Assembly (NCBI RefSeq): GCF_022538055.1
Contig: NZ_JAKZAM010000004.1
Coordinates: forward strand, 62,001-126,000
Direction of reading: 5' to 3'
DNA length: 64,000 nt
Origin: Cognataquiflexum nitidum
GTDB taxonomy: Bacteria; Bacteroidota; Bacteroidia; Cytophagales; Cyclobacteriaceae
Position numbers and translations under genes: made by a program. The notes beneath the pieces were generated by a model, which was given only the letters and a program-made list of their open reading frames with translations, was not told where the DNA came from and made no database searches. Shown here one piece after another: positions 5,276 to 60,410 of the stretch; the first letter of the stretch is position 1, and each line of letters opens with the position of its first letter.

Positions 5276-5992
5276 TTAGATTTCAAAGTATTTCATTTTT
5301 ACAGAAGCGTTTTTAAAACACATGCTGCACCAATAATCTCCTTCGATCAACAAGCTTTTGGTATACCAAGTATTAGTGTCGCTTGGCAATTTAGCAAAAT
5401 CTTGGAGTGTATTCAATTCATTTAGGTTATCCATCAACCCTGTTCCTTCAGCTTTTAAAATGGATTCTTTGATCGTCCATATTTTGAAGAATTGATTGAT
5501 AGGTTGTATTGATTTTTCAATAAAATCAATTTCATCAGGATGAAATGACATTTCAAATATAGATCGATAGTCAAAATCAGGATTAATTCTCTCTACATCA
5601 ATGCCACAGGGATCACCCGAAAAGGCAAAAACAAGCCAATCACCTGAATGCGAGGTATTGAAATGAATCTTTTCTTGATTCCTGATTTTTGGTTTGTTGA
5701 ATTCATTCAACTCAAACTCCACTGACTCGGGTTCATAACCGAGGTAGTATCCACAAAGGATTTTTTTCATAACGGAACTGGCAAGAAAACTGTATTTGTC
5801 CTGTTCTCTCGCAAATCTTTCTGATTTTTTTAACTCTTCGCCTGTTAATAATCCTGCATGCGGCAGGATTTTCTCCAAGTTATTAGCTATCCCAATCCGG
5901 ATTATATGAAGCTCATCCAATAGCGGAGAGGCTACGAATTTTTTCCAAACGGGATTGGTTTCTTGCCAATCAATGGATTTATTGAGGATCAT
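5276..5992 (-). CDS. 4'-phosphopantetheinyl transferase (Sfp-type)
   Basis: 238 residues. It shows the Sfp superfamily signatures: FNTSHSGDW, then CGIDVERI (magnesium-binding Asp and Glu) and the WTIKESILKAEGTG helix (W-x-x-K-E-x-x-x-K). The family moves the phosphopantetheine arm of CoA onto the conserved serine of carrier proteins. Its ATG (5990-5992) overlaps the stop codon of the thioesterase remnant upstream (5989-5991) as ATGA, implying translational coupling in the NRPS operon. The natural substrates are therefore the four PCP domains encoded upstream on the same strand. It appears intact although the preceding thioesterase is broken. Confidence 0.93.
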   Translation of the reverse strand: MILNKSIDWQETNPVWKKFVASPLLDELHIIRIGIANNLEKILPHAGLLTGEELKKSERFAREQDKYSFLASSVMKKILCGYYLGYEPESVEFELNEFNKPKIRNQEKIHFNTSHSGDWLVFAFSGDPCGIDVERINPDFDYRSIFEMSFHPDEIDFIEKSIQPINQFFKIWTIKESILKAEGTGLMDNLNELNTLQDFAKLPSDTNTWYTKSLLIEGDYWCSMCFKNASVKMKYFEI

Positions 5993-6324
5993 GAATCCGA
6001 TTTTTCATCAAGGACTTTTTGGATTTTTTCGGCTATTTCTTTCAAAATTTCAGTTTTTTTGAGAATAATGTCATGGTGTCCGCCAATATTTATCACCTTG
6101 ACTTTTTCAACAAATGAGGTCCATCCATAAAATTTTGGTTCTTCGATATAAGTTTCCATAATTTTTGCCCGTAATAAATATAAGGTGCCATAAAAATGAG
6201 GGACTAATTTATATTTATTTAATAAATAGGTATTATTTTTTGAAACTTTATTGAGGTAGTTTGTTGGTTTGTTCACTAATCGTGGATTAAACTTTGATTT
6301 AATAATGGAAAATATCAAATCCAT
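5989..6324 (-). pseudogene. C-terminal fragment of the thioesterase of the small NRPS
   Basis: 111 residues in frame with the preceding fragment (6328-6621) and separated from it by a single TGA at 6328-6330. It aligns without gaps to the last part of the intact thioesterase of the large NRPS (YLNKVSKNN against VLNRVAKNN; VEKVKVINIGGHHD against VEKVNVVHVSGHHD), and the lesion falls where the intact protein has an Arg. It keeps the C-terminal GHH motif that should supply the catalytic His. The ATG at 6324 is probably fortuitous. Its stop overlaps the start of the phosphopantetheinyl transferase. Decay or a sequencing error are both possible. Confidence 0.7.
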
Positions 6325-6327
6325 TTT

Positions 6328-6621
6328 TCATAAAAGATATCCTTTTTTCCTTCTTAAATATGCCCCAGGTTCATTTAAAAAAAAGTTTACTTTAGCTAGG
6401 ATAATATTTAAGATAAGGTTAATTTTTTCAAATGGTGAATGTTTTTCTTGGTAATCGAACGCAGCTGTATCAAATAGAATAAGTTTATTGACTTTTTTCC
6501 CCATTGATTGAAGCTGTTTGGCCATTTCATAAGCCACAATCCCCCCATAGCAATAGCCTGATAGATTATAAGGGCCATCCGGATTTTTTTCAACCATAAG
6601 TGAAATATAGTACTCAGCCAT
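6328..6621 (-). pseudogene. N-terminal/nucleophile part of the broken thioesterase, with Cys in place of the usual Ser
   Basis: The frame is open from about 6717 (YLAKFIDTEQPIYGF...) but has no start codon until 6621. It is the continuation of the small NRPS after a one-base shift near 6712. It aligns to the thioesterase of the large NRPS; the nucleophile elbow reads GYCYGG instead of GYSFGG, a Ser-to-Cys change. It ends at a TGA (6328-6330). As it stands it cannot make a complete thioesterase unless the shift and the stop are sequence errors or are recoded. Confidence 0.7.
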
Positions 6622-6710
6622 TCCTTCAAGAGATATGTCAGTTGCCTCCTTCCCATCCAGACCTTTTGGCTGAAAGCCATAAATGGGCTGTTCGGTGTCA
6701 ATGAATTTTG

Positions 6711-9395
6711 CTAAATATAATAAATAGATGCCGAGGAACCCCCACCATGAACCATATATAATGGCGGTTTGCTTCTTGAGGTTTTTACATCTAATAATGA
6801 ATTCAAACCTACCTGATTTTGGTTGATGTTCTCAATTGCATTGGCGAGTTCCGCTATACTCGGGTATTTGAATATCAGGTTAATGGTAAGTTTTAATCCA
6901 CTTTCTTTTTCCAAAGCTGACATTACTTTTACCGCCAGCAGGGAATGTCCCCCAAGGGCAAAGAAGTCATCGTGGATGCCTATCCGGTCCAAACCGAGGA
7001 TTCTCTGCCAGATCGCGGCAAGCTGTTTTTCCTGCTCATTCCTTGGTTCTGTATATCCGGCGGTCACCATATCCCCGATTCCGACATCGGGCAGTGCTTT
7101 TCTGTCGGTTTTGCCGCTGAGTGTGAGGGGTAGTTTTTCGAGCTTTACCCATAGAGCCGGCACCATGTATTCAGGTAATTTTGACCTGAGGAATGCACTG
7201 ACGGATTCTTTGTCGAAAGTCCCGTCGCAGATGACATATCCCACGAGTCTTTTGTCACCCTGTCCGTTTTCTCTTGCCATGACTACCGCCTGCTTTACAT
7301 TGGGATGGAGTACCAAGACGGATTCGATTTCACCGAGCTCGATGCGGTATCCCCTGATTTTGACTTGATCGTCCATCCTGCCCAGATACTCTAAATTACC
7401 GTCCCCTCGCCATCTGCCCAAGTCTCCAGTTCTGTATAATCGTTCCTCAGGCCTGTAGGGGTTTTCTATAAATTTCTCCCTGGTGAGCTCTTCCCGGTTT
7501 AGATATCCCCTTGCCAAACCTACTCCGCCTATGCAAATCTCCCCGACAGTACCATAAGGAACGAGGTGGTGGGTGGGATTTAAGACGTAAAGCGCTGTGT
7601 TGTCAATCGGTTTGCCTATTGGAATGCTCAGTTCCTCAGCTGTCTCACAGGCATAGTAACTCACATCTATGCTCGCTTCCGTAGGACCATAGAGATTCAT
7701 TAGACTTACAGCCGGAAGCAATTCTTTGAACCTCTTTAACTGTTCTGCTTTTAAGGCTTCTCCACTGGTATATACCTGCTTTAGACTGCTTAGCTTCAAA
7801 ATGTTTTCTGTTGAGCTGCCCAAAAATTCTAAAAAGGCTTCAAGCATACTTGGAACAAAATGTAACACCGTAACCTGTGCGGCTTCTATTGTCGAAACAA
7901 TCTTTTCGGGTTGTTTCTCTCCCCCAGGTTCCAACATACTCACAGAGGCCCCCTGCAGGGACCACCAAATCAGCTCCCATACCGATACATCGAAAGTAAA
8001 AGTGGTCTTTTGCAGGATACAATCTTTTTCTGTCAAAGCATAAGACTTCTGCATCCAAGCCAATCTGTTGACCAGGCCCCTATGCTCCAGCATACAGCCT
8101 TTGGGTTTACCCGTTGAACCTGAGGTGTAAATCACGTACATCAGGTTCTCGGGACTTATCCGGGTTACAGGATTTGTGTTTGGATAGTTGCGTTCATTTA
8201 TGGCTTTCCTGAATTCTTCCAGTTCAGCCTGATTGATAACTAATTTCAACCTCGCATCTTCTTTGATAAAATCCTTTCGCTGGTCAGGAAACTCAGGATC
8301 TATCGGTACATAGGCACCACCGGATTTGATGATCGCCAATATGCCTATCACCATCCACTCACTGCGCTCCAATTCTATTCCTATCAGATCATCGGTCTGA
8401 ATATTGTATCTTTCAATCAGATAATGTGCAAACTGGTTCGACCGTTCATTCAGCTCTTTGTAGCTTAGCTCTTTATCCCTGAACAATAATGCCACTGCAT
8501 CGGGAGTTTTATTCACCTGTTGCTCAAATAAGTCCACGATTGTCTTCTCGTGGGGGTATTCCGCTTCCGTAGCATTTAAAGTTTCTAACAGAAGTGTTCT
8601 TTCCTCAGTAGGAATAATGTTTAAGAGATCAAGGTTTTGTGAAGGTTGGGCACGAATGGATTCAAGAAATGTCACAAAATGGGATACCATCCTATTTATG
8701 GTTTTAGAGCAATAGAAATCCTTGTCAAAGGTGATACGGCCTTCAATTTTTTCTTCATTTTCTACAAAGCAGAACAGTAAATTTGAAATAAAATCCTCAA
8801 GGTTTACTTTTGAGATCAGATTTTCGATACTGAGATCTTGTTTTTTTTGATAGTCGAAAATGACGGGGAAAAGTAACCTCAAATCCTTTTCATTCTTTTT
8901 TCCTAATAAGGAAATTAGCTGATCAACAGAGATTCGATTATTGGAATTGGCTTCAGCTAAATCGATCTCTAATTTTTGAACAAACTCATCAAAATTTTGG
9001 CTGCTATCTATTTTGGAACGAATGGGAAGAAAATCCAAAAAGAAGGCTTTTTCATTCTCCGAGTTTGGATTCTCAATTACTGTTTCCTTGAAGTTGGTGC
9101 CAATACAAAAATCATTTTGACTGCTGTATCTATAAAGTAAGACCTTTAAAGCTGCCAACAGGACTAAAGGATGTGAGGGCTTTGATTCGGAAAAGTGGGA
9201 AACAATATTGTCAAGAAGAGACCTGTCTATCAGGAAATTGATGGTATTGATTTCTGTTCTATCGGTCAGAGACCTCGAATGATCCTTGGGCAGTTGTAAA
9301 TCTTCGATTCCTTCAAGCTTTTTAATCCAATAATCTTTGATTAAAAAGGGAGACTCCGTCGCTGATTGGGTGATTTGCGATTTTGTTAATAGCAT
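6711..9395 (-). CDS. Small NRPS: half condensation domain, Ser-type A domain, PCP, truncated thioesterase
   Basis: 894 residues. Residues 1 to about 265 match only the C-terminal lobe of a condensation domain, beginning at DYWIKKLEG, with no HHxxxDG motif. The A domain (about 285-760) has YTSGSTGKPKG near residue 428, the NLYGPTE, YRTGDLGRW and LSGKTDRKAL motifs, and a manually read code DVWHYSLIDK, close to the serine code DVWHFSLIDK. A PCP follows (LGGHSLLAVK near 815). The frame then enters the thioesterase (PPLYMVHGGGS) and stops at 6711, where a one-base shift breaks it. The A-domain DNA appears identical to module 2 of the large NRPS, while the N-terminus resembles module 1 and the PCP/TE resembles module 3. 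Most likely a recombined, partly decayed paralogue. Confidence 0.88.
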   Translation of the reverse strand: MLLTKSQITQSATESPFLIKDYWIKKLEGIEDLQLPKDHSRSLTDRTEINTINFLIDRSLLDNIVSHFSESKPSHPLVLLAALKVLLYRYSSQNDFCIGTNFKETVIENPNSENEKAFFLDFLPIRSKIDSSQNFDEFVQKLEIDLAEANSNNRISVDQLISLLGKKNEKDLRLLFPVIFDYQKKQDLSIENLISKVNLEDFISNLLFCFVENEEKIEGRITFDKDFYCSKTINRMVSHFVTFLESIRAQPSQNLDLLNIIPTEERTLLLETLNATEAEYPHEKTIVDLFEQQVNKTPDAVALLFRDKELSYKELNERSNQFAHYLIERYNIQTDDLIGIELERSEWMVIGILAIIKSGGAYVPIDPEFPDQRKDFIKEDARLKLVINQAELEEFRKAINERNYPNTNPVTRISPENLMYVIYTSGSTGKPKGCMLEHRGLVNRLAWMQKSYALTEKDCILQKTTFTFDVSVWELIWWSLQGASVSMLEPGGEKQPEKIVSTIEAAQVTVLHFVPSMLEAFLEFLGSSTENILKLSSLKQVYTSGEALKAEQLKRFKELLPAVSLMNLYGPTEASIDVSYYACETAEELSIPIGKPIDNTALYVLNPTHHLVPYGTVGEICIGGVGLARGYLNREELTREKFIENPYRPEERLYRTGDLGRWRGDGNLEYLGRMDDQVKIRGYRIELGEIESVLVLHPNVKQAVVMARENGQGDKRLVGYVICDGTFDKESVSAFLRSKLPEYMVPALWVKLEKLPLTLSGKTDRKALPDVGIGDMVTAGYTEPRNEQEKQLAAIWQRILGLDRIGIHDDFFALGGHSLLAVKVMSALEKESGLKLTINLIFKYPSIAELANAIENINQNQVGLNSLLDVKTSRSKPPLYMVHGGGSSASIYYI
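7018..8622. repeat. 1.6-kb near-perfect repeat, copy 1 (A domain of the small NRPS)
   Basis: This stretch matches 15226-16830 at a constant offset of 8208 bp, with no difference seen in the lines I compared. It runs from the A-PCP linker back to the start of the A domain. Flanking DNA differs at both edges (for example GATCGCGGCA against GAGGGCTGCA just before 7018), which is the pattern left by gene conversion. Confidence 0.85.
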
Positions 9396-9698: not shown

Positions 9699-11027
9699 TC
9701 AAAATTTTGGAAATTCCCATGGAGTTCTGTTTGTTGGTGTAATCAATCCATTGGCTTTTTTACTGTTTGTGAACATTTGTTTTTTGTCATCCCAATCCAA
9801 AATCGGCTCATTTGTCCTTCCTGAGATATTGGGTATGTGGGCATACAATGCAGCAATTCTGCCTGTTTCGGGTGGACAAATAGGAGTCTCTCTGGATTTA
9901 ATGCAATCAATGAAATTTTTGACATGCAGGTTATGGGATTCACTTCCTTCGGTAAATAGGAACGCTTCGGCCTTTGCCTCTTTTTTGTCAGAGTCCCATT
10001 CAGGATATACCTGAAAAGATTTTCTGTCAGCTACAATTGTGGCATTTTCACCGATGAAAGCGATGCCATAAGATTTCCCATATGGCCCTTGCTGGATCCC
10101 TGCAGTCATATCCCAGTTGATTGTAAATTCTTCATTGGCGTAGATGACTGACATAGTATCAAACGTTTCCCTGCTTCTGACATCAGTTGAAGAGTTGACT
10201 GCCGTGGTTATTACTCTCAAAGGGGCTTTAGGATTTTGCATTGCCCAAATGCCCATATCCAAAAGGTGTACGCCCCAATCAGTCATCAAACCTCCACCAT
10301 AATCCCAAAAATGTCTCCAACTTCCATGAAAGCGGGTTGGATTAAAGGGGCGCTTCGGCGCAGGTCCAAGCCAAAAATCGTAATCCACACCTGAAGGAGC
10401 AAGACTGTCACCGGCCGGAATGGCACCTGTTCCATAATTGAAATTGGACCAAATATTTACTTTTCGGATTTTTCCAATATCTCCGTTTTTAATCATTCGG
10501 ACAGGCTCGCTAAAGGAATAGCCACTCCTTTGCTGTTGACCAACTTGAACAACACGCTTGTAATAGGCAGCCGCCTCAACCATGATACTGGATTCCCCGA
10601 TTGAATTTGCTAAAGGCTTTTCGACATAGACATCTTTTCCTGCAGCACATGCGGCAACCATAATGAGACAATGCCAATGGTCCGGAGTGCCAATTATGAC
10701 AGCATCTATATCTTTTTGCTCCAAAACCTTCCTGAAATCTTTGAATGGTTTTGGGTCCTGTCCAAAAGTTTCTTTGACTTCTTTGATTCTCTTAGAAAGA
10801 ACATTTTCATCCACATCACAAATCGCCACACAATTCACTCCCGGCATATTCAGATGGTGCCTCAAAATACTGAATCCATGACCATTGCAACCAATCAGAG
10901 CCACGTTGACTTGGTCACTTGGTCTCACCGTTTTTGCCCAAACTTTAGATGGTATGAAGCTGAATAAGCCAATACCTACTGTGGTAGTAAGAGTTTTCTC
11001 AATAAATTTTCTTCTCGTCGGTTTCAT
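9699..11027 (-). CDS. Tat-exported Gfo/Idh/MocA family oxidoreductase
   Basis: 442 residues. The N-terminus has a twin-arginine signal (TRRKFIEKT followed by a hydrophobic stretch to SKVWA), so the enzyme should be exported folded with its cofactor. A Rossmann motif (ALIGCNGHG) and the catalytic-loop motif VEKPLANS define the Gfo/Idh/MocA family; MTDWGVHLLDM is typical of the Bacteroidota/Planctomycete secreted branch. The family oxidises or reduces sugars and related polyols with NAD(P). It sits between two NRPS genes on the same strand, 91 bp after the large one. A periplasmic sugar oxidoreductase has no obvious place in peptide assembly, so it may be a passenger or act on an exported product. 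Confidence 0.9.
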   Translation of the reverse strand: MKPTRRKFIEKTLTTTVGIGLFSFIPSKVWAKTVRPSDQVNVALIGCNGHGFSILRHHLNMPGVNCVAICDVDENVLSKRIKEVKETFGQDPKPFKDFRKVLEQKDIDAVIIGTPDHWHCLIMVAACAAGKDVYVEKPLANSIGESSIMVEAAAYYKRVVQVGQQQRSGYSFSEPVRMIKNGDIGKIRKVNIWSNFNYGTGAIPAGDSLAPSGVDYDFWLGPAPKRPFNPTRFHGSWRHFWDYGGGLMTDWGVHLLDMGIWAMQNPKAPLRVITTAVNSSTDVRSRETFDTMSVIYANEEFTINWDMTAGIQQGPYGKSYGIAFIGENATIVADRKSFQVYPEWDSDKKEAKAEAFLFTEGSESHNLHVKNFIDCIKSRETPICPPETGRIAALYAHIPNISGRTNEPILDWDDKKQMFTNSKKANGLITPTNRTPWEFPKF

Positions 11028-11117: not shown

Positions 11118-14100
11118 TCATGAACCGGGTTTTTCATCAAGGACCTTTTGGATTTTTTCAGCCATTTCTTTTAAAATCTCAGGTTTGTGAAAGAGGTTGT
11201 CATGGTGGCCCGAAACATGGACAACATTGACCTTTTCTACAAAAGGAACCCATCCGTAATATTTTGGCTCTTCAACATAAAACCCCTGGGTTTTTGCGCG
11301 GAATAAAACCATCGGGCCATGGTAAGGAACCAATTTATAGCTCCTTAAGATATCGGCATTATTTTTTGCGACTCTATTCAGGACGCTTCTCGAATCGTCC
11401 AAAAATTTCGGATCAGGTTTCAACTTCATTTTTACTAAAAGTTTGTCCCTTTTTCTTTTGTATGACCTTGTTTTCTTTTCCAAATAACCCTGTGGTTCAT
11501 GCAAAACAAAGTTGATCTCGTTAAGAATTATTTTTGATCTGAGTTTTAATTTATCAAAAGCAGAAAGTTTCTCGTAGGAGTCCAAAGATGATGTGTCAAA
11601 CAAAATAAGCTTCCCGACTTTTCTCCCCATAGCATGAAGTTGTTGGGCCATTTCATAAGCGACATAGCCGCCAAAGGAATAGCCGGATATATTGTATGGG
11701 CCGTATGGATTCTGATCGATCATCAGGGAAATATAATATGAGGCCATTTCTTCAAGTGAGCTGTTAGGAACTTCTTTCCCATCTAACCCTTTGGGCTGAA
11801 AACCATAAATAGGTTGGTCGTCTTCAATATATTTCGCTAGACTATAATAGATAGAAACCGCCGAACCTACTCCATGTACGATATATAATGGAGGTTTAGA
11901 ACCACTTGGTTTGATCGCCACGAGGGAATTCCAACCTGCCTGATTTTGATTGCTATTTTCAATTGCCTTTGCGAAAGCAAAAATGTTAGGAAATTTGAAT
12001 ATCAGGTTAATGGGAATTTTTGAACCAATTTCTTTTTCCAAGGCAGATATTACTTTTACAGAAAGTAAGGAATTTCCCCCAAGAGCGAAGAAGTCATCAT
12101 GTATACCTACCCTTTCCCAACTGAGGATTCTTTGCCAGATGACAGCAAGTTTTTTTTCCAGTTCAGAACGTGGTTCGATATAATCGGGTGTAACCATATC
12201 TCCAATACTTAAATCAGGAAGAGCCTTTCTGTCTATCTTTCCATTGCTGGTTAGTGGCAATTTCTCCAACTTTACATAAAAGTTCGGCACCATATATTGT
12301 GGCAGCTTTTCCATTAAGTAGGCCTTCATCTCCTCAGCCGTAGCCATTCCTGTGCTATAGGCTATCAGCTCTTTGTCTGTTGTGTTTTTTAGCAATCTGG
12401 CGAGCACTACCCCTTGTTCCACTTTTAGGTGGCTTGTCAATACCTGTTCAATCTCTCCCAATTCTATCCTGTTCCCCCTAATCTTTACTTGGTCATCCAT
12501 CCTACCCAAATACTCCAAATTACGGTCCTTGCCCCACTTACCTAAGTCTCCTGTTCTATACAACCGCTTCCCCGGCTTGTATGGATTCTCTATAAATTTC
12601 TCTTTGGTAAGATCATCTCTGTTTAGATAACCTCTTGCTATGCCAACACCTCCTAAGCAGATTTCTCCAACAACACCATAAGGAACCAAGTGTTGGGAAG
12701 AGTCTAAGAGATATATTTCTGTATTTTGTATAGGTGTGCCTATGTAAGGCTCATTGTCAACACCTATCTCTTTTACTATACATCCAACAGTTGCTTCTGT
12801 CGGGCCGTATTCATTGTATATTCTGCTACCCTCATTTTTACGCAAATATTCGATTAGTTCCTTGGTTAATGCTTCACCTCCTAATACAAATACCTTGCTC
12901 CTAGCTTCTCGCAGCGTTTGCTCCTCTATAAGTTTAATGTGTGCGGGGGTTAATTTTATCCATCCATTCTCAGGATTTAAAACTATCTCTTTTAACTGTC
13001 TTGATAAATCCTCGAATTGATTATGTACGTGTAGTGCCTTCCCTTGTGTCAGTGCACCGAATAAAGAAGTTATTGTAAAATCAAAGGATAAACTGCTGAA
13101 CAAATCGACTTTACTATAACTAATGTCTCTACTGTATTCGGATGTCCAATCCAAGTAATTATTCACCCCTCCATAATTCAATACACATCCCTTTGGATTA
13201 CCCGTTGAACCAGAGGTATAAATCACATATATTACATCAGTTAACTTTATCGTTACATTGGGTCTATCTATTGAATACAAAGTATCTTGTAATTTAAATG
13301 CATCCCATTCTTCTTCATCAATTAATAATTTACAACCGCTGTCCTGTTTAATAAAGGCAATGCGCTCTTTCGGATAGTCAATATCAATAGGCACATACGC
13401 GGCTCCAGTTTTTAAAACTCCCAAAACGCTCAAAACCATTCTAGCACTGCGTTCTAACCTTATCCCTACTAAATCCCCATTCACCACTCCGTGTTTTTCA
13501 ATCAGATAATGTGCAAACTGGTTCGACCGTTCATTCAGCTCTTTGTAGCTTAGCTTATCATCCCTGAACAATAATGCCGTTGCATCAGGAGTTTTATTCA
13601 CCTGTTCCTCAAATAAGTCCACGATTGTCTTATCTTGGGGGTATTCAGCTTCTGTAGCATTTAAAGTTTCTAACAGAAGTGTTCTTTCCTCAGTAGGAAT
13701 AATGTTTAAGAGATCAAGGTTTAAAGATGGATTTTCAACGATTGATTTCAGGAGAAGGATAAAGTGGCTTACGAAACGTTCCATTGTTTCAGGCCTATAC
13801 AGGTCTGTATTGTATTCTACAATTCCTGCAATGCCCTTTTCCATTTCTGTGAGTTCGAAAGTCAGGTCAAACTTCGAAGTGAAATTCTCGTAAGTCTCAT
13901 CCGACACCAAGACATCATCCAGACGGACCTCATTTTTGGGAACATTCTGCAAAACGAATAAAACCTGGAATACAGGATTTCTGCTCAGGTCTCTTTTTTG
14001 TCTAAGTGATTCCACCACCATTTCAAAGGGGATTTGTTGGAATTCGAAAGACTCCAGCGTAGTGGTCCGGATATCTTTAAGAAGTTCTGTAAAGGTCATG

Positions 14101-17100
14101 TCTCCCCTTAGATTGGATCGAAGAGCCAAGGTGTTGACAAAAAACCCAATGAGATCATCCGTTTCTTCGCTTTCTCTACCTGCCACAGGTGTGCCAACGC
14201 AGATATCCTCCTGACCACTATACCGATAAAGAAGTGTTTTGAATGCTGCCAGCAATGTCATAAAAAGAGTTGTCTGATGACTTTGTCCCAATTCCTTCAG
14301 TTGGGATACCACGGAATCATCGATTGAAAAACGGTAACTATTCCCGTTATTACTCTGAATCGGCGGCCTTGCAAAATCGGTAGGAAGCTGAAGTGGAGCG
14401 ACGTTCTGGAGTTTGGCTTTCCAGAAGTCAATCTTGGGCTGTATTGAATCACTGTTCAGGAAATTTCTTTGCCATATGGCATAATCAATATATTGGAGTG
14501 GCAGGGGAGAAAGCGGTATTGGTTTTCCGTTTGTGATTGCCTGATAGCATTCGGTGAGTTCTTTTCTCAAGATATTGACAGACCATCCATCAGAGGCTAT
14601 GTGGTGCATGGTGATCACCAGACAATAATCTCCTTGGGCTTTGGTGATCAGACAGGCCCTCATCATGTGGTCATGGGCGAGGTCAAAGGGTATCCTGATC
14701 AGTCTTGTGATTTCATTTTTGAGGAGTTCAGGATCAGGCAATTCCATCCTGTCCAGCCTCCAGAGACCTTTGCCGAGAACGGTTTGGCAATCGTTCCCGT
14801 CTTTCTCGGTGATGACGGTTCTGAGGACTTCATGGCGGTTGACAATGGTTTTCAGTACTTCTTCCAAGGCACGGATATCGAGCTTTCCCCGGATGTTATG
14901 GATCAGCGGAATGTGATACTGTATACTTCCTTCCAACTGATGGATAAACCAAAGACTTTGTTGATTGTAAGATAGTGGGATGGTTTCAGGCCTCGCCACA
15001 ACCATTGGTACTTGGTTGGAGAGGACATTGTCTCTGGAAATCAGGATTAGGGCAAGCTGAGCCACAGTAGGAGCAGAGAAGAAGTCCAGAATGCTGATTT
15101 CGGAACCCAGTTCTTTCCTGATTGATGCAACGGCACGCATTGCTAGCAAGGAATGTCCACCTAATGCAAAGAAATCATCGTGGATGCCTATCCGATCCAA
15201 ACCGAGGATTCTCTGCCAGAGGGCTGCAAGCTGTTTTTCCTGCTCATTCCTTGGTTCTGTATATCCGGCGGTCACCATATCCCCGATTCCGACATCGGGC
15301 AGTGCTTTTCTGTCGGTTTTGCCGCTGAGTGTGAGGGGTAGTTTTTCGAGCTTTACCCATAGAGCCGGCACCATGTATTCAGGTAATTTTGACCTGAGGA
15401 ATGCACTGACGGATTCTTTGTCGAAAGTCCCGTCGCAGATGACATATCCCACGAGTCTTTTGTCACCCTGTCCGTTTTCTCTTGCCATGACTACCGCCTG
15501 CTTTACATTGGGATGGAGTACCAAGACGGATTCGATTTCACCGAGCTCGATGCGGTATCCCCTGATTTTGACTTGATCGTCCATCCTGCCCAGATACTCT
15601 AAATTACCGTCCCCTCGCCATCTGCCCAAGTCTCCAGTTCTGTATAATCGTTCCTCAGGCCTGTAGGGGTTTTCTATAAATTTCTCCCTGGTGAGCTCTT
15701 CCCGGTTTAGATATCCCCTTGCCAAACCTACTCCGCCTATGCAAATCTCCCCGACAGTACCATAAGGAACGAGGTGGTGGGTGGGATTTAAGACGTAAAG
15801 CGCTGTGTTGTCAATCGGTTTGCCTATTGGAATGCTCAGTTCCTCAGCTGTCTCACAGGCATAGTAACTCACATCTATGCTCGCTTCCGTAGGACCATAG
15901 AGATTCATTAGACTTACAGCCGGAAGCAATTCTTTGAACCTCTTTAACTGTTCTGCTTTTAAGGCTTCTCCACTGGTATATACCTGCTTTAGACTGCTTA
16001 GCTTCAAAATGTTTTCTGTTGAGCTGCCCAAAAATTCTAAAAAGGCTTCAAGCATACTTGGAACAAAATGTAACACCGTAACCTGTGCGGCTTCTATTGT
16101 CGAAACAATCTTTTCGGGTTGTTTCTCTCCCCCAGGTTCCAACATACTCACAGAGGCCCCCTGCAGGGACCACCAAATCAGCTCCCATACCGATACATCG
16201 AAAGTAAAAGTGGTCTTTTGCAGGATACAATCTTTTTCTGTCAAAGCATAAGACTTCTGCATCCAAGCCAATCTGTTGACCAGGCCCCTATGCTCCAGCA
16301 TACAGCCTTTGGGTTTACCCGTTGAACCTGAGGTGTAAATCACGTACATCAGGTTCTCGGGACTTATCCGGGTTACAGGATTTGTGTTTGGATAGTTGCG
16401 TTCATTTATGGCTTTCCTGAATTCTTCCAGTTCAGCCTGATTGATAACTAATTTCAACCTCGCATCTTCTTTGATAAAATCCTTTCGCTGGTCAGGAAAC
16501 TCAGGATCTATCGGTACATAGGCACCACCGGATTTGATGATCGCCAATATGCCTATCACCATCCACTCACTGCGCTCCAATTCTATTCCTATCAGATCAT
16601 CGGTCTGAATATTGTATCTTTCAATCAGATAATGTGCAAACTGGTTCGACCGTTCATTCAGCTCTTTGTAGCTTAGCTCTTTATCCCTGAACAATAATGC
16701 CACTGCATCGGGAGTTTTATTCACCTGTTGCTCAAATAAGTCCACGATTGTCTTCTCGTGGGGGTATTCCGCTTCCGTAGCATTTAAAGTTTCTAACAGA
16801 AGTGTTCTTTCCTCAGTAGGAATAATGTTTATGAGATCAAGGTTTAAAGATGGATTTTCAACGATTGATTTCAGGAGAAGGATAAAGTGGCTTACGAAAC
16901 GTTCCATTGTTTCAGGCCTATACAGGTCTGTATTGTATTCTACAATTCCTGCAATGCCCTTTTCCATTTCTGTGAGTTCGAAAGTCAGGTCAAACTTCGA
17001 AGTGAAATTCTCGTAAGTCTCATCCGACACCAAGACATCATCCAGACGGACCTCATTTTTGGGAACATTCTGCAAAACGAATAAAACCTGGAATACAGGA

Positions 17101-20100
17101 TTTCTGCTCAGGTCTCTTTTTTGTCTAAGTGATTCCACCACCATTTCAAAGGGGATTTGTTGGAATTCGAAAGACTCCAGCGTAGTGGTCCGGATATCTT
17201 TAAGAAGTTCTGTAAAGGTCATGTCTCCCCTTAGATTGGATCGAAGAGCCAAGGTGTTGACAAAAAACCCAATGAGATCATCCGTTTCTTCGCTTTCTCT
17301 ACCTGCCACAGGTGTGCCAACGCAGATATCCTCCTGACCACTATACCGATAAAGAAGTGTTTTGAATGCTGCCAGCAATGTCATAAAAAGAGTTGTCTGA
17401 TGACTTTGTCCCAATTCCTTCAGTTGGGATACCACGGAATCATCGATTGAAAAACGGTAACTATTCCCGTTATTACTCTGAATCGGCGGCCTTGCAAAAT
17501 CGGTAGGAAGCTGAAGCGGAGCGACGTTCTGGAGTTTGGCTTTCCAGAAGTCGATTTTACTCTGGATTGCATCACTGTTGAGGAAATTTCTTTGCCAAAT
17601 AGCATAGTCAATGTACTGAATGGGCAGAGGGGGCAGTGAACCCTGTATTCCGTTGAAGATGGACTGATAGCATTCGGTGAGTTCCTTTTTCAGGATGTTT
17701 GCAGACCATCCGTCGGAGGAGATGTGGTGCATGGTGATCACCAGACAATAATCGCCTTTGGTTTTGGTGATCAAGCATGCCCTCATCATGTGGTCATGGG
17801 CGAGGTCGAAAGGTGTTCTTATCAGTTCGGAAATTTCATTGTCAAGTAGTTCCGGATCAGGTAAATCCCATCTGTCCAGCTTCCAGATATCTTTGCCGAG
17901 AACGGTTTGGTAATAATTGCCGTCTTTCTCTGTGATGACGGTTCTGAGGACTTCGTGGCGGTTGACAATGGTTTTAAGGGCTTCTTCCAGGGCTAGTATG
18001 TCGAGCTTCCCCTCGATTTCAAGGATCAGTGGAATATGGTATTGGATGCTTCCTTCGAGCTTATGAATGAACCAGAGGCTCTGCTGATTGTAGGAAAGGG
18101 GAATGTTTTCAGGCCTTGCCATGGGTTGCGGAGCAAAACTGGAGGCCTGGCCGCTTCGGGACTGGAGTATCAGGGCAAGCTGTTCAACCGTGGGTGCTGA
18201 GAACAGTTCACGGATCGAAAGTTCTGCCCCCAAATCTTTTCTGACTGTTGCGACGGTCCGCATCGCTAGCAGGGAATGTCCCCCAAGGGCAAAGAAGTCA
18301 TCGTGGATGCCTATCCGGTCCAAACCGAGGATTCTCTGCCAGATCGCGGCAAGCTGTTTTTCGAGGTCATTTCTTGGTTTAGTATATTCGACATTCCCCA
18401 TATCTGCGTAACCGACCTCGGGCAGTGCCTTTCTGTCGATTTTCCCGCTGAAGGTGAGGGGGAGTTTTTCGAGCTGAAGCCAAAGGGCGGGGACCATATA
18501 TTCAGGAAGTTTTGACCTGAGGAATGCACTGACGGATTCTTTGTCGAAAGTCCCGTCGCAGACCACATATCCCACGAGTCTTTTGTCACCCTGTCCGTTT
18601 TCCTTTGCTATGACCACTGCCTGCCTCACTCCGTGGTGGAGGAGCAGGACGGATTCGATTTCGCCGAGCTCGATGCGGTATCCCCTGATTTTGACTTGAT
18701 CGTCCATCCTGCCGAGGTATTCGATGTTTCCGTCGTGAAGCCACCTGGCAAGGTCACCTGTGCGGTACATCCTTCCACCGGACACGTTGCTGAAGGGATC
18801 GGGAAGGAATTTTTGGGAGGAAAGTTCAGGTCTGTTGAGGTAACCCCGTCCGACTCCTTTCCCCCCGATGCAGAGTTCACCCGGGATCCCGACAGGGTTT
18901 AGGATTCCATCTGAGGATAGGATGTAGATAGCAGTATTGTCAATGGGTTTCCCGATGGCAACCTTTTGGCCGATCTCCATTTTTTTAAAGGTTGACCAGA
19001 TAGTTGTTTCGGTTGGACCATACATGTTCCAAAGTGTGCCTATTCCCACAAGAGTATTTTTCAATTCCTCACCGAGGGCTTCTCCACCGACGAGCATTTT
19101 GATATTTTGTGGATTTTTCCATCCTGAATTGAGTAACATCTGCCAACCCGAAGGCGTTGCCTGCATGTGCGTAGGACGGACTTCTTCCAGTTTTTTGGAA
19201 AGGCTGAAGCCATCCATGGCAATTTCCCTGCTTGCCAAGAATACCCTGCCACCATTGATAAGGGGAAGAAAAAGCTCAAGATAAAAGATGTCAAAACTAA
19301 AAGTAGTGACCGAGAGTAGACTTGAATTAGCATCGAATTCTACATTTTTCGACATACTTGCCAAGAAGTTTGCCACATTCTGGTGCTCTATCATTACACC
19401 TTTGGGCTTTCCTGTAGAACCTGAGGTATAGATGATGTAGGCAAGGTTATCGGGTAATAGTGAATTTAGGATTGCTTCTGACGGCATCCTCAGGATTGAC
19501 TCCATTTCTTTGTCCACAACCACAAGGCTTATTTCACTACCGAAATTGTGTTCAGTTTTGGAAGAGCAAATGACAAAATCTGCCTTTGTATCTTGGACCA
19601 TATAATCGATCCTATCTTTGGGTAATCCAGGATCGATGGGGACATAGGCCCCACCTGATTTGAGGATTCCAAAGATGCCTATTACCATCTCCAGAGACCG
19701 GTCTATACAGATCGGAACAAGGCTTTCAGGTTGGAGTCCGTTTCTGGTCAGATAATGAGCAAGGTGATTGGATTTGATATCCAGGTCCTTGTATGAAAGC
19801 TGTTCGCCTTCAAACTCAACTGCAATTGCATATGGCGTTTTGACGACTTGGCTTTCAAATAAATCTAAGATTGTTTTGCCTTTGGGTAGAGGGGAGAAAG
19901 TATCATTAAATGATTTCAGAAGTTGGAATTCTTCCTCTATGGGAATAATGTTTAAGAGACCAATGTTTTGGGAAGCTTGGGCATGAATGGATTCAAGAAG
20001 TTTGACAAGATGAGATACCATTCTATTTATGGTTTTAGAGCAATAGAACTCCTTGTCAAAGGTGATACGGCCTTCAATTTTTTCTTCATTTTCTACAAAG

Positions 20101-20726
20101 CCAAACAATAAAGTTGAATTAAAATTTTCAAGGTTTATTTTGGATGATTGGTTAAGGTCTTCTAAATCAGTATTTTTTTGATAATCCAAAATGACTGTAA
20201 AAAGTATGCTTAAATCCCTTTTGTTCTGTATTCCTAATGAAGTAATTAATTGATCAACAGAGATTTGATTGTAGGAATTGGCTTCAGCTAAATCGATCTC
20301 TAATTTTTGAACAAACTCATCAAAATTTTGGCTGCCATCTATTTTTGAACGAATGGGAAGAAAATCCAAAAAAGAGGTTTTTACAATCTCCGAGTTTGGA
20401 TTCTCAATTACTGTTTCCTTGAAGTTGGTGCCAATACAAAAATCATTTTGACTGCTGTATCTATAAAGTAAGACCTTTAAAGCTGCCAACAGGACTAAAG
20501 GATGTGAGGGCTTTGATTCGGAAAAGTGGGAAACAATATTGTCAAGGAGAGACCTGTCTATCAGGAAATCGATGGTATTGATTTCTGTTCTATCGGTCAA
20601 AGACCTCGAATGATCCTTGGGCAGTTGTAACTCTTCGATGCCTTCAAGCTTTTTAATCCAATAATCACTGATTAATTGAGAGGAATTGGTCGCTGATTGG
20701 GTATTTGGCGATTTTGTTAATAGCAT
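11118..20726 (-). CDS. Three-module nonribosomal peptide synthetase (half C-A-PCP, C-A-PCP, C-A-PCP-TE)
   Basis: 3202 residues. Order: C-terminal lobe only of a condensation domain (about 1-270, no HHxxxDG); A1 (about 290-770); PCP1 (LGGHSLL near 815); C2 (HHISSDG near 1000); A2 (YTSGSTGKPKG near 1470); PCP2 (near 1855); C3 (HHIASDG near 2040); A3 (YTSGSTGNPKG near 2508); PCP3 (LGGNSLLS near 2878); thioesterase (GYSFGG near 3018, GHH near the end). Manual specificity codes are A1 DILQLGMIWK (glycine-like), A2 DVWHYSLIDK (serine-like) and A3 DFTKVGEVGK (Asn/Asp-like); all three keep the A10 lysine. There is no epimerisation, methylation or reductase domain. Both full C domains look like LCL type. 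Predicted product: a tripeptide Gly-Ser-Asn/Asp, released as acid or ring. The gene is first on the minus strand and probably leads an operon reaching the phosphopantetheinyl transferase. Confidence 0.93.
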   Translation of the reverse strand: MLLTKSPNTQSATNSSQLISDYWIKKLEGIEELQLPKDHSRSLTDRTEINTIDFLIDRSLLDNIVSHFSESKPSHPLVLLAALKVLLYRYSSQNDFCIGTNFKETVIENPNSEIVKTSFLDFLPIRSKIDGSQNFDEFVQKLEIDLAEANSYNQISVDQLITSLGIQNKRDLSILFTVILDYQKNTDLEDLNQSSKINLENFNSTLLFGFVENEEKIEGRITFDKEFYCSKTINRMVSHLVKLLESIHAQASQNIGLLNIIPIEEEFQLLKSFNDTFSPLPKGKTILDLFESQVVKTPYAIAVEFEGEQLSYKDLDIKSNHLAHYLTRNGLQPESLVPICIDRSLEMVIGIFGILKSGGAYVPIDPGLPKDRIDYMVQDTKADFVICSSKTEHNFGSEISLVVVDKEMESILRMPSEAILNSLLPDNLAYIIYTSGSTGKPKGVMIEHQNVANFLASMSKNVEFDANSSLLSVTTFSFDIFYLELFLPLINGGRVFLASREIAMDGFSLSKKLEEVRPTHMQATPSGWQMLLNSGWKNPQNIKMLVGGEALGEELKNTLVGIGTLWNMYGPTETTIWSTFKKMEIGQKVAIGKPIDNTAIYILSSDGILNPVGIPGELCIGGKGVGRGYLNRPELSSQKFLPDPFSNVSGGRMYRTGDLARWLHDGNIEYLGRMDDQVKIRGYRIELGEIESVLLLHHGVRQAVVIAKENGQGDKRLVGYVVCDGTFDKESVSAFLRSKLPEYMVPALWLQLEKLPLTFSGKIDRKALPEVGYADMGNVEYTKPRNDLEKQLAAIWQRILGLDRIGIHDDFFALGGHSLLAMRTVATVRKDLGAELSIRELFSAPTVEQLALILQSRSGQASSFAPQPMARPENIPLSYNQQSLWFIHKLEGSIQYHIPLILEIEGKLDILALEEALKTIVNRHEVLRTVITEKDGNYYQTVLGKDIWKLDRWDLPDPELLDNEISELIRTPFDLAHDHMMRACLITKTKGDYCLVITMHHISSDGWSANILKKELTECYQSIFNGIQGSLPPLPIQYIDYAIWQRNFLNSDAIQSKIDFWKAKLQNVAPLQLPTDFARPPIQSNNGNSYRFSIDDSVVSQLKELGQSHQTTLFMTLLAAFKTLLYRYSGQEDICVGTPVAGRESEETDDLIGFFVNTLALRSNLRGDMTFTELLKDIRTTTLESFEFQQIPFEMVVESLRQKRDLSRNPVFQVLFVLQNVPKNEVRLDDVLVSDETYENFTSKFDLTFELTEMEKGIAGIVEYNTDLYRPETMERFVSHFILLLKSIVENPSLNLDLINIIPTEERTLLLETLNATEAEYPHEKTIVDLFEQQVNKTPDAVALLFRDKELSYKELNERSNQFAHYLIERYNIQTDDLIGIELERSEWMVIGILAIIKSGGAYVPIDPEFPDQRKDFIKEDARLKLVINQAELEEFRKAINERNYPNTNPVTRISPENLMYVIYTSGSTGKPKGCMLEHRGLVNRLAWMQKSYALTEKDCILQKTTFTFDVSVWELIWWSLQGASVSMLEPGGEKQPEKIVSTIEAAQVTVLHFVPSMLEAFLEFLGSSTENILKLSSLKQVYTSGEALKAEQLKRFKELLPAVSLMNLYGPTEASIDVSYYACETAEELSIPIGKPIDNTALYVLNPTHHLVPYGTVGEICIGGVGLARGYLNREELTREKFIENPYRPEERLYRTGDLGRWRGDGNLEYLGRMDDQVKIRGYRIELGEIESVLVLHPNVKQAVVMARENGQGDKRLVGYVICDGTFDKESVSAFLRSKLPEYMVPALWVKLEKLPLTLSGKTDRKALPDVGIGDMVTAGYTEPRNEQEKQLAALWQRILGLDRIGIHDDFFALGGHSLLAMRAVASIRKELGSEISILDFFSAPTVAQLALILISRDNVLSNQVPMVVARPETIPLSYNQQSLWFIHQLEGSIQYHIPLIHNIRGKLDIRALEEVLKTIVNRHEVLRTVITEKDGNDCQTVLGKGLWRLDRMELPDPELLKNEITRLIRIPFDLAHDHMMRACLITKAQGDYCLVITMHHIASDGWSVNILRKELTECYQAITNGKPIPLSPLPLQYIDYAIWQRNFLNSDSIQPKIDFWKAKLQNVAPLQLPTDFARPPIQSNNGNSYRFSIDDSVVSQLKELGQSHQTTLFMTLLAAFKTLLYRYSGQEDICVGTPVAGRESEETDDLIGFFVNTLALRSNLRGDMTFTELLKDIRTTTLESFEFQQIPFEMVVESLRQKRDLSRNPVFQVLFVLQNVPKNEVRLDDVLVSDETYENFTSKFDLTFELTEMEKGIAGIVEYNTDLYRPETMERFVSHFILLLKSIVENPSLNLDLLNIIPTEERTLLLETLNATEAEYPQDKTIVDLFEEQVNKTPDATALLFRDDKLSYKELNERSNQFAHYLIEKHGVVNGDLVGIRLERSARMVLSVLGVLKTGAAYVPIDIDYPKERIAFIKQDSGCKLLIDEEEWDAFKLQDTLYSIDRPNVTIKLTDVIYVIYTSGSTGNPKGCVLNYGGVNNYLDWTSEYSRDISYSKVDLFSSLSFDFTITSLFGALTQGKALHVHNQFEDLSRQLKEIVLNPENGWIKLTPAHIKLIEEQTLREARSKVFVLGGEALTKELIEYLRKNEGSRIYNEYGPTEATVGCIVKEIGVDNEPYIGTPIQNTEIYLLDSSQHLVPYGVVGEICLGGVGIARGYLNRDDLTKEKFIENPYKPGKRLYRTGDLGKWGKDRNLEYLGRMDDQVKIRGNRIELGEIEQVLTSHLKVEQGVVLARLLKNTTDKELIAYSTGMATAEEMKAYLMEKLPQYMVPNFYVKLEKLPLTSNGKIDRKALPDLSIGDMVTPDYIEPRSELEKKLAVIWQRILSWERVGIHDDFFALGGNSLLSVKVISALEKEIGSKIPINLIFKFPNIFAFAKAIENSNQNQAGWNSLVAIKPSGSKPPLYIVHGVGSAVSIYYSLAKYIEDDQPIYGFQPKGLDGKEVPNSSLEEMASYYISLMIDQNPYGPYNISGYSFGGYVAYEMAQQLHAMGRKVGKLILFDTSSLDSYEKLSAFDKLKLRSKIILNEINFVLHEPQGYLEKKTRSYKRKRDKLLVKMKLKPDPKFLDDSRSVLNRVAKNNADILRSYKLVPYHGPMVLFRAKTQGFYVEEPKYYGWVPFVEKVNVVHVSGHHDNLFHKPEILKEMAEKIQKVLDEKPGS
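13710..14393. repeat. C-domain repeat, copy 1 (module 3 condensation domain)
   Basis: This matches 16833-17516 at an offset of 3123 bp, exactly 1041 codons or one C-A-PCP module. A single change at 14394 against 17517 is followed by about 30 more matching bases before divergence. It encodes the acceptor lobe and C-A linker of the condensation domain. It indicates internal homogenisation of modules 2 and 3. Confidence 0.8.
15226..16830. repeat. 1.6-kb near-perfect repeat, copy 2 (A2 of the large NRPS)
   Basis: Partner of 7018-8622. It covers module-2 A-domain coding sequence. Identity ends where the large NRPS enters the A-PCP linker on one side and the C-A linker on the other. Confidence 0.85.
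16833..17516. repeat. C-domain repeat, copy 2 (module 2 condensation domain)
   Basis: Partner of 13710-14393, one module period (3123 bp) away. The first difference on the left edge is AAG against ATG at 13709/16832. Confidence 0.8.
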
Positions 20727-47250: not shown

Positions 47251-48269
47251 AAAAGATCTCTCCTTCGTCGAGATGACAAGGGAAAGTCTAATCCAATGCT
47301 TGATGTTTCTTGCAGTTTAATTGGGTAGAAAGCTTCAACTTGTCATTTCGTGAATTCAACATTATCAAAATGTTCAGAAAGGGGAATGACAATTAAACTA
47401 TTTTATTTCGGCCTCGTCCACGATAGCGATCGGGATCGGCCACCAAGGTTGTTTTTGGGAGAAGGGTTAGGAGGAAAAAGCGGCGCAGCCGCTTTTTCCT
47501 CCTAACCCTCTAAACACCGAATCTCCGGTCCCTGAGCTTGTCGAAGGGTAAATTGCTATTACGTCATTGGTAAGGAGGTACTGCCTGTTCCGTTTTCTTC
47601 GGGAACTGAAGGATTTCATTTATTAGAGACCCTTCGCTTCACTACCAATGATATCACCGGAGCTTGGGGTATCTTGATTCTAATTTCAATAAAACTTATT
47701 TTTTCGATTAAATTTCCTCCTGCTTTAGCTGGAGGGGAAATAAAAGCACCGATCTCCGCGGCTTTAGCCAAATCCTATCCACCTTCATAAATCCAATCTC
47801 ATTGTTTTGGCTAAAGCCGATTTTTTGCTCGGCATTTATTTGTGAATGGGCTTATTCCTATTGAACCTCAATATTCCAAAATGTCATTCCCCATTCTGAA
47901 CATTTGCAAATTGTTAAAAACTCAGGGTGACGCCAATCAAAATCTGTCATTGCGACCGTACGGAGAAATCTGTGGAATGCTCCTAAAAGATATCTCCTTC
48001 GTCGAGATGACAAGGATAAGTCTAATCCAAAGCTTGATGTTTTTTGCAGTTTAATTGGGCTGAGAGCTTCAACTTGTCATTTCGCCCGTGGTGAGAAATC
48101 AGTGGAATGCTCCTAAAAGATCTCTCCATCGTCGAGATGACAAGGATAAGTCTAATCCAAAGCTTGATGTTTAATTGAGCAGATGTCTTAGTTTATGGAG
48201 ATGCTTCACTACGTTCAGCATGACGCAGGTAGTCAGTCATCCTTAGACACGAAGGATCTCAATGACAAA
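47251..48269. repeat. 1-kb non-coding block of dispersed repeats
   Basis: Three copies of an element beginning AAAAGATCTCTCCTTCGTCG start at 47251, 47985 and 48115; the first two continue for about 100 bp (...GAGATGACAAGG...TTGATGTTT...CTTCAACTTGTCATTTCG). Other parts include a CCACGATAGCGATCGGGAT motif at 47417 (again at 57991 with one change) and a TTCACTACGTTCAGCATGAC element near 48205. The only frame listed in the block is repeat sequence, so no gene is called. Confidence 0.75.
47464..47508. repeat. Perfect 21-bp inverted repeat, 3-base loop
   Basis: GGGTTAGGAGGAAAAAGCGG plus one further base (47464-47484), loop GCA (47485-47487), and the exact complement at 47488-47508. It is a very stable cruciform or RNA hairpin in the repeat block. 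It lies 214 bp past the receptor stop and has no T-run, so it is not a typical terminator. Confidence 0.9.
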
Positions 48270-56116: not shown

Positions 56117-56761
56117 ATGTTGTCAGAAGAAGAAAAAGAACTTATCAGATTAAGGGAAACTTGCCGGTTTGAAGTCAGGGAAAAACTTCAAAATGAAGCT
56201 GACAAAAAGATAGGATGGGTGAAAGTGATTTATTTTTTCAACAGCAAACTCGGCCTTTGGATATTGTCTGCTGTTTTTCTCTCCGGTGGGGTGGTGGCCT
56301 ATGATGATTATAAAGAGAAAAAAGAAGACAAAAAATCCCGAACCGAATTGGTGGAAAAACTGGATTTGGAAATCAGCTACAAATTCAATCGGGTGATATA
56401 TTTTATCGATGAACTTAGCGATAAAAAAGGTGAAAATTCCCAAATTCTAGTCACGGCGAGTATAGACAATGTACGTGAAATCGCTCTTGGTTTGGACAAA
56501 TCTTATGGAAAGAGTGGCGATTACCTCAATGGGGATTTTCAGAATTGGAGCCTTTTGGCTCTGATGGTCGAGATCAGGAGGCAACTGATGAAATCGGGGA
56601 TTAAGGATGCAGAATTGGATCAGGTGATTACCCACATGACTGATCTCCCCGCGTTTTTTGAAGGCAAGAACGTTGACTATGCCAATATTCCTGCAATCAA
56701 AAAACTGATCAGGGAAAATCTTATTTTATCGAGATGGGAAAATCAGGGTTTTGATTTATAG
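56117..56761 (+). CDS. Hypothetical protein with one membrane segment
   Basis: 214 residues of unknown family. A charged N-terminal helix (SEEEKELIRLRETCRFEVREKLQ) precedes one membrane segment at about residues 46-63 (LGLWILSAVFLSGGVVAY), and a helical soluble domain follows. The last codons and the stop lie inside the left copy of a 149-bp direct repeat whose second copy is at 57836. The upstream spacer is AT-rich. No function is proposed. Confidence 0.75.
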   Translation: MLSEEEKELIRLRETCRFEVREKLQNEADKKIGWVKVIYFFNSKLGLWILSAVFLSGGVVAYDDYKEKKEDKKSRTELVEKLDLEISYKFNRVIYFIDELSDKKGENSQILVTASIDNVREIALGLDKSYGKSGDYLNGDFQNWSLLALMVEIRRQLMKSGIKDAELDQVITHMTDLPAFFEGKNVDYANIPAIKKLIRENLILSRWENQGFDL

Positions 56762-56887
56762 TGGTCTTAACTTTTCCAAAGTTTCGAACTTTGGAAAAGT
56801 TCTATAATACGGGTTTAAGTCCTGACATCGTCGTGTTGGATGATCCAAACTACGACTTGTGTGTAATTTGTAATTCCACCCTTTTTT
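56739..56887. repeat. 149-bp direct repeat, left copy (contains a 15-bp-arm palindrome)
   Basis: Matches 57836-57984 at an offset of 1097 bp with only a few changes. It includes the last codons of the 214-aa gene. The palindrome AACTTTTCCAAAGTT-TCG-AACTTTGGAAAAGTT (56769-56801) has perfect arms and recurs in the right copy. Weaker similarity continues for about 40 bases to the left. Confidence 0.9.
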
Positions 56888-57835: not shown

Positions 57836-57984
57836 AAAATCAGGGTTTTGATTTATAGTGGTCTTAACTTTTCCAAAGTTTCGAACTTTGGAAAAGTTCT
57901 ATAATACGGGTTTAAGTCCTAACATCGTCGTGTAGGATGATCCAAACTACGGCTTTTGTGTAATTTGTAATTCCATCCTTTTAT
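57836..57984. repeat. 149-bp direct repeat, right copy
   Basis: Second copy of 56739-56887, again with the 15-bp-arm palindrome (57866-57898). The two copies bracket the split gene and its small partner. Confidence 0.9.
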
Positions 57985-58080: not shown

Positions 58081-58330
58081 AAGGCGTAGTTACAAACTAC
58101 GCCTAGAGGTTACTTCTCCTTATAATGGTCAAACCAATTCAGAATCGCTGCCACACCTGGGAGTAGTCAAACGGTGAATAGTGGACTGGGAGGGATTTGT
58201 AATTCCACCCTTTTATCCTTCCAATTTGTAATTGGATTCAACCAAACACCCAAATGAAAAGTAATTTTTGGTAAAGAGAATTTCAAATTCATTTCATACA
58301 AAGGCGGAATTTGTAATTCCGCCTAGTGCC
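58081..58330. repeat. Dispersed palindromic element with an embedded S9-peptidase 3'-end scar
   Basis: An IR GGCGTAGTT-ACA-AACTACGCC (58083-58103) is followed by 58110-58153, which on the minus strand encodes AAILNWFDHYKEK plus stop, nearly the same as the C-terminus of the S9 peptidase at 60435. Then comes an element (CACCTGGGAGTAGTCAAACG ... GGATTTGTAATTCCACCC ... GGCGGAATTTGTAATTCCGCC) that is repeated at 60226-60410. The rest of the 57985-58476 spacer is AT-rich with no gene. Confidence 0.8.
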
Positions 58331-60225: not shown

Positions 60226-60410
60226 CCCACCTGGGTGTAATCAAACGCTTGATGCTAGGACTGGGTGGGATTTGTAATTCCACCCTTTTATCCTTCCAAT
60301 TTGTAATTGGATTCAACCAAACACCCAAATGAAAAGTAATTTTTGGTAAAGTGAATTGCAAATTCATTTCATACAAAGGCGTAATTTCAAATTACGCCTA
60401 GCGTTCACGC
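60226..60410. repeat. Dispersed element, full copy
   Basis: Second copy of the element at 58150-58330: CCACCTGGGTGTAATCAAAC at the left, TTGTAATTCCACCC in the middle, TCCAATTTGTAATTGGATTC further right, and the terminal IR GGCGTAATTTcAAATTACGCC. It ends 25 bp before the stop codon of the S9 peptidase. Confidence 0.85.

Follow-up and report, generated by a model that had tools for sequence, protein, structure and literature searches.

An identical 1606-bp Ser-type adenylation block in two non-ribosomal peptide synthetase genes of Cognataquiflexum nitidum and its probable origin by recent gene conversion

Introduction

Why should two paralogous genes share 1.6 kb of unaltered DNA when the homologous DNA on either side has diverged? 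The question is raised by a stretch of 64,000 nucleotides from Cognataquiflexum nitidum (the window, here always taken at its full length), whose genome is a draft assembly in 83 contigs and adjoins Aquiflexum (Cyclobacteriaceae). Two non-ribosomal peptide synthetase (NRPS) genes lie in it, g1 (6711..9395, 894 aa) and g2 (11118..20726, 3202 aa), on the minus strand, as do all genes and tracts of the cluster described below. A preliminary description held that 7018-8622 in the former equals 15226-16830 in the latter amid diverged flanking DNA; it proposed recent gene conversion that copied or homogenised a Ser-type adenylation domain, with sharp borders at the domain linkers, and saw natural swapping of such domains at work.

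According to Pfam, the cluster belongs to the type I modular NRPSs, with modules of condensation (C), adenylation (A) and thiolation (T) domains and a thioesterase (TE). The architecture of g1 is half-C (C')-A(Ser)-T; that of g2 is half-C-A(Gly)-T-C-A(Ser)-T-C-A(Asn)-T-TE. In both genes the first C domain is present as its C-terminal half only (PF00668 positions 195-455 in g1); these half-C starts, at 9395-8590 (g1) and 20726-19920 (g2), are the same in relatives. The positions of the specificity codes were placed by hand on the motifs, and the substrates are predicted: by comparison with published codes we take them to be Gly, Ser and Asn for g2 and Ser for g1. The code of the shared Ser-type domain, DVWHYSLIDK, fits the pattern DVWHxSLx.

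Results

Direct sequence comparison gives an exact match of 1606 bp with 0 mismatches, 7018-8623 = 15226-16831. The proposed identity thus holds at every position (0 of 1605 differ) and extends by one base; the first mismatches outside the block are at 7017 and 8624. With the two copies aligned at this offset, identity per 100 bp is 97-100% inside; outside, the successive values are 71% and 35% on the low side and 68%, 45% and 24% on the high side. Within 100-200 bp beyond either edge the flanks are at a background of 25-50%, which also bears out their divergence. On the low side, the shoulder (6937-7017) consists of T-domain core that g2 module 1 has as well: the core of g1 at 6937..7031 (95 bp) is identical to 18268-18362. 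The block comprises the last residues of C, the C-A linker, the Ser-type A core, the A sub-domain and the A-T linker, and stops where the T domain starts. A whole-genome search finds two full-length copies only, in direct orientation and 8.2 kb apart: one in g1 (7018..8623, residues 258-793, reaching the first T residues) and one in g2 module 2 (15226..16831, residues 1299-1834).

Chance or ordinary conservation is ruled out as the cause of the match, because the orthologues of this A domain in sister species have diverged by 7-11% (dS 0.24-0.40), that is, the paralogues are far closer to each other inside the tract than the orthologues are. Two sister species have one orthologous Ser A domain each, with identities to the block of 93% and 89%. 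Between the window copies dN = dS = 0, against dS 0.243 (orthologue of Aquiflexum sp. TKW24L, a draft genome, G003) and 0.396 to sister orthologues; zero differences in 1606 positions set a 95% upper bound of 0.19% on their divergence, which would be about 3% of the divergence from G003 if rates are equal.

The trees agree with this. A domains group by genome and not by gene (support 100/100 for the window pair and 99/100 for the pair of a closed sister genome, G110), whereas the T and C flanks of the tract group otherwise. With the relatives' orthologues of g2 and g1 called X and Y, the approximately unbiased (AU) test rejects holding together the X copies (p 1e-59) or the Y copies (p 2e-31), and it rejects grouping the window Ser A domain with orthologues of X module 2 (X2). 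In g2 module 2, the T domain is unlike that of Y module 2 (Y2; p 9e-6) and groups with G110 T domains (96/95); the C-terminal half of the C domain in the same module is Y2-like (X2 grouping rejected, p 5e-4), and for the N-terminal half the test is not significant (p 0.068).

We believe that recent gene conversion of the Ser A domain between g1 and g2 is well supported, as had been proposed, because the copies cluster by genome, dS is 0 against 0.24, the borders at the C-A and A-T linkers are sharp and sister genomes show independent parallels; with high probability one copy was recently copied over the other.

The two genes themselves are older than this event by the evidence of gene order. 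In Aquiflexum sp. TKW24L the conserved order is NRPS X, oxidoreductase, NRPS Y, phosphopantetheinyl transferase, peptidase; in A. lacus (G005), X, Y and the transferase are conserved, no oxidoreductase separates X from Y, and a search for the peptidase in the synteny comparison of its cluster gave no match. In the window, a GFO/IDH/MocA oxidoreductase, syntenic in Aquiflexum sp. TKW24L, lies between the two NRPS genes (9699..11027), and a 4'-phosphopantetheinyl transferase (5276..5992) is syntenic with that beside gene Y in relatives. The codes of G003 and G005 read DALQTGLITK - Gly - DSALIAEVWK in X and DALQTGLITK - Ser in Y. Judging from this synteny and these codes, g2 corresponds to X and g1 to Y, and in most relatives the Ser A domain appears by descent to be of the Y-type lineage. 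The codes DALQTGLITK of X module 1 and DSALIAEVWK of X module 3 are kept in most relatives.

The X line-up of the window differs from that of G001, G003, G004, G005 and G030 at all 3 positions, X module 2 being Gly-type in these five; in G110 it is Ser, and Gly-Ser at X positions 1-2 is common to this genome and the window. We had regarded Ser in X2 as unique to the window lineage, a notion dropped once G110 was found.

Blocks of the same kind occur elsewhere. A. lacus has an exact block of 1608 bp shared by the first A domain of X and that of Y (X1 = Y1), an independent case at another module. In G003, X modules 1 and 2 share 886 + 177 exact bp parted by a single mismatch. In G110, where X module 2 and Y module 1 are both of Ser type, the two A domains are 97% identical with an exact run of 842 bp and an abrupt C-A border; in G034, also closed, two distant modules share an exact A-domain tract of 1211 bp starting at a sharp C-A border. 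Since G110 and G034 are closed, such exact blocks occur in finished genomes.

In G034 (L094-L096), tandem NRPS modules offset by 3147 bp are identical over as much as 5766 bp, and in G017 (4 contigs; L097) over as much as 4171 bp; we read these repeats as recent whole-module duplications.

The sharpness of the borders, which is what gene conversion would leave, needs one qualification: on the upstream side, the border in g1 is at the same time a deletion junction. Compared with Y of G003, g1 resembles module 1 only above about 8651, both modules from about 8615 to 8496, and module 2 only beyond; the junction is thus placed at 8496..8651, with upstream DNA like Y module 1 and downstream DNA like Y module 2. 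It falls within a linker segment that occurs twice in G003 (L084), as an exact direct repeat of 110 bp in two C-A linkers (14332-14441 and 17458-17567; spacing 3126 bp, in frame). One in-frame module is missing from g1, lost at the C-A linker; recombination between such repeats would delete A-T-C in frame and yield the architecture of g1, a close fit. In g1 this border therefore need not mark the edge of a conversion tract, and on its upstream side the 1606-bp identity may instead end at the deletion junction.

In other respects, too, g1 looks degraded, because its thioesterase follows in another frame (remnant at 6001..6714) with an in-frame stop at about 6330-6328. By Pfam and by synteny with two-module genes of relatives, g1 appears to be a degraded remnant of a two-module gene Y.

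As direct repeats of 1.6 kb lying 8.2 kb apart, the two copies could themselves recombine, fusing g2 modules 1-2 to the end of g1 with loss of the middle segment; the locus may be unstable.

Discussion

We presume a RecA-type conversion between two paralogous NRPS modules in direct orientation, which would have homogenised or installed the whole Ser-type A domain, linkers included, in g1 and in g2 module 2. The tract first copied into g2 may have exceeded 1.6 kb, because the C domain that precedes the Ser A domain in g2 is Y2-type in its C-terminal half as well. In the relatives, X and Y A domains have been repeatedly exchanged or homogenised, mostly as blocks ending in DNA that is common to modules (C-A linker, T core).

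Four points temper this account. The direction of the last transfer can be inferred at best, as two identical copies give no reading of it. The T-domain tree (96/95) suggests that Ser was perhaps already present in X2, in which case the last event needed no change of specificity. The AU groups were chosen after the trees had been seen. Finally, the exactness of the match may be overstated, given that a short-read assembler can collapse near-identical repeats in a draft of 83 contigs; even so, near-identity well above the level between sister species would remain.

The most serious competitor concerns what the event did. A Ser A domain may recently have been copied from Y into X module 2 in place of a Gly-type domain, with a change of specificity and possibly along with the C-terminal half of the C domain before it; we hold this to be a real possibility, though not the more probable one. 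The Gly-type X module 2 of the five other relatives agrees with it, as do the Y2-like C half before the Ser domain and a T domain that does not group with Y2. The Gly-Ser order in X modules 1-2 of the closed G110, together with the grouping of the T domain of g2 module 2 with G110 T domains, suggests instead an older Ser module that was later homogenised. On these same grounds, Ser in X module 2 of G110 and the T-domain grouping, the last event may have been a homogenisation of Ser over Ser. The swapping of A domains is thus borne out by the comparison of clusters, and less surely by the last event in the window.

That the block, or its exactness, is an artefact of repeat collapse or misjoining in the draft seems to us improbable. 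The assembly is fragmented, the exact repeat exceeds the usual short-read inserts, and the same cluster contains several further exact repeats. Nevertheless, all four flanks are distinct, two direct copies force the linear order, short of a circular middle segment, and the orthology of the half-C pieces speaks against the other path, through the 160-bp repeat. The gene order is syntenic with relatives, no stray contig with the block exists, and the same kind of block is found in the closed G110 and G034; in G003, likewise a draft, a lone single-base difference survived between the 886 and the 177 exact bases.

A recent duplication of a larger segment (a whole module or gene) with flanks since diverged or replaced is quite unlikely. 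Whole-module tandem duplications are real in this family, as the 5766 exact bp of G034 show, and the half-C pieces of g1 and g2 are also close (88%). The flanks, however, are not equally young: the C', C2 and T flanks group with other relatives' modules than the A domain does, while the block differs by 0 bases, and synteny indicates that both genes existed before. Strong purifying selection on two old copies, for which one could cite the conservation of A domains as proteins, is virtually ruled out, as selection at the protein level does not hold synonymous sites and dS is 0 against 0.243 to the sister orthologue.

Intragenomic A-domain recombination is established (PMC8097286, PMC9205934, PMC3640908, PMC7486941), and the present case is a clean new instance of a known process, with unusually fresh borders and several sister genomes for comparison; a literature search on Aquiflexum NRPSs gave no match. 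The closest likeness is to the microcystin clusters, in which mcyC recombined within the genome into mcyB-A1 (reviewed in PMC8097286): there, too, A-domain DNA was copied between two NRPS genes of one cluster, recurrently in related strains. In microcystin, however, mostly the part between motifs A3 and A9 was exchanged, whereas our block covers both the C-A and the A-T linker along with the A core and A sub-domain, in a host from Bacteroidota. The recombination landscape of Baunach et al. 2021 (PMC8097286) likewise locates breakpoints against orthologues and finds A domains to be a hotspot of diversification; contrary to the trend of that survey, the blocks of the window and of A. lacus include the A sub-domain, and that of the window also the C-A linker. 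The wolG1/wolG2 bifurcation of wollamide/desotamide synthesis (PMC9205934) shares with our case duplicated NRPS genes, intragenomic A-domain recombination and the expected decay of one gene; the window event, in contrast, homogenised two copies, and the decaying g1 still has the same A domain. In the engineering of pyoverdine by substitution of the A domain with its linker (PMC7486941), the upstream border is also at the very end of C and the A domain keeps its own linker; that is laboratory work, and here a natural block has nearly the same upstream border.

These comparisons matter because engineers of peptide assembly lines need A-domain borders that nature tolerates, and the window cluster and its sisters offer very young exchanges, whose borders are not yet blurred by mutation. 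Our block, with both linkers and the A sub-domain, departs from the survey trend (PMC8097286) and comes close to a border that proved functional in the laboratory (PMC7486941). As the line-ups of the sister species differ, the question of borders can be tested by comparison of products.

It is tempting to go further and propose that in this genus group C-A linker and T-core DNA, near-identical among modules, acts as standing homology arms; whole A domains would be exchanged as cassettes together with their linkers, and modules would come and go in frame. We put this forward as a speculation with a rather low chance. If true, it would be a natural combinatorial system with borders unlike the published "A core only" rule. 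A dedicated recombination hotspot at the linkers is not claimed: a scan averaged over pairs of modules from the same genome with unlike specificities showed homogenisation chiefly in the N-terminal half of C, and at the C-A linker and T the rise was only modest.

Further features of the window

Other exact tracts lie within the cluster. The C domains of g2 modules 3 and 2 share 684 bp (13710..14393 identical to 16833..17516); with the adjoining 13654-13708, 739 of 740 bp are identical. The copy in module 2 is the C-terminal half of C and is related to Y module 2 of relatives. The half-C pieces of g1 and g2 form a mosaic in which near-identical patches are interspersed with diverged ones, the exact patches reaching 160 bp (9056..9215 in g1 identical to 20387..20546 in g2).

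The product of X is predicted as Gly-Ser-Asn. The putative Asn-type A core of g2 module 3 (12500-13300) has the code DFTKVGEVGK; a close donor for it was not found among 59 genomes of the family and order, and it was possibly acquired from elsewhere.

Outside the NRPS region, exact repeats are 56739-56823 = 57836-57920 (85 bp), 58192-58276 = 60267-60351 (85 bp) and 47999-48042 = 48129-48172 (44 bp); the first of these contains a palindrome and could be an element like the repetitive extragenic palindromic (REP) sequences.
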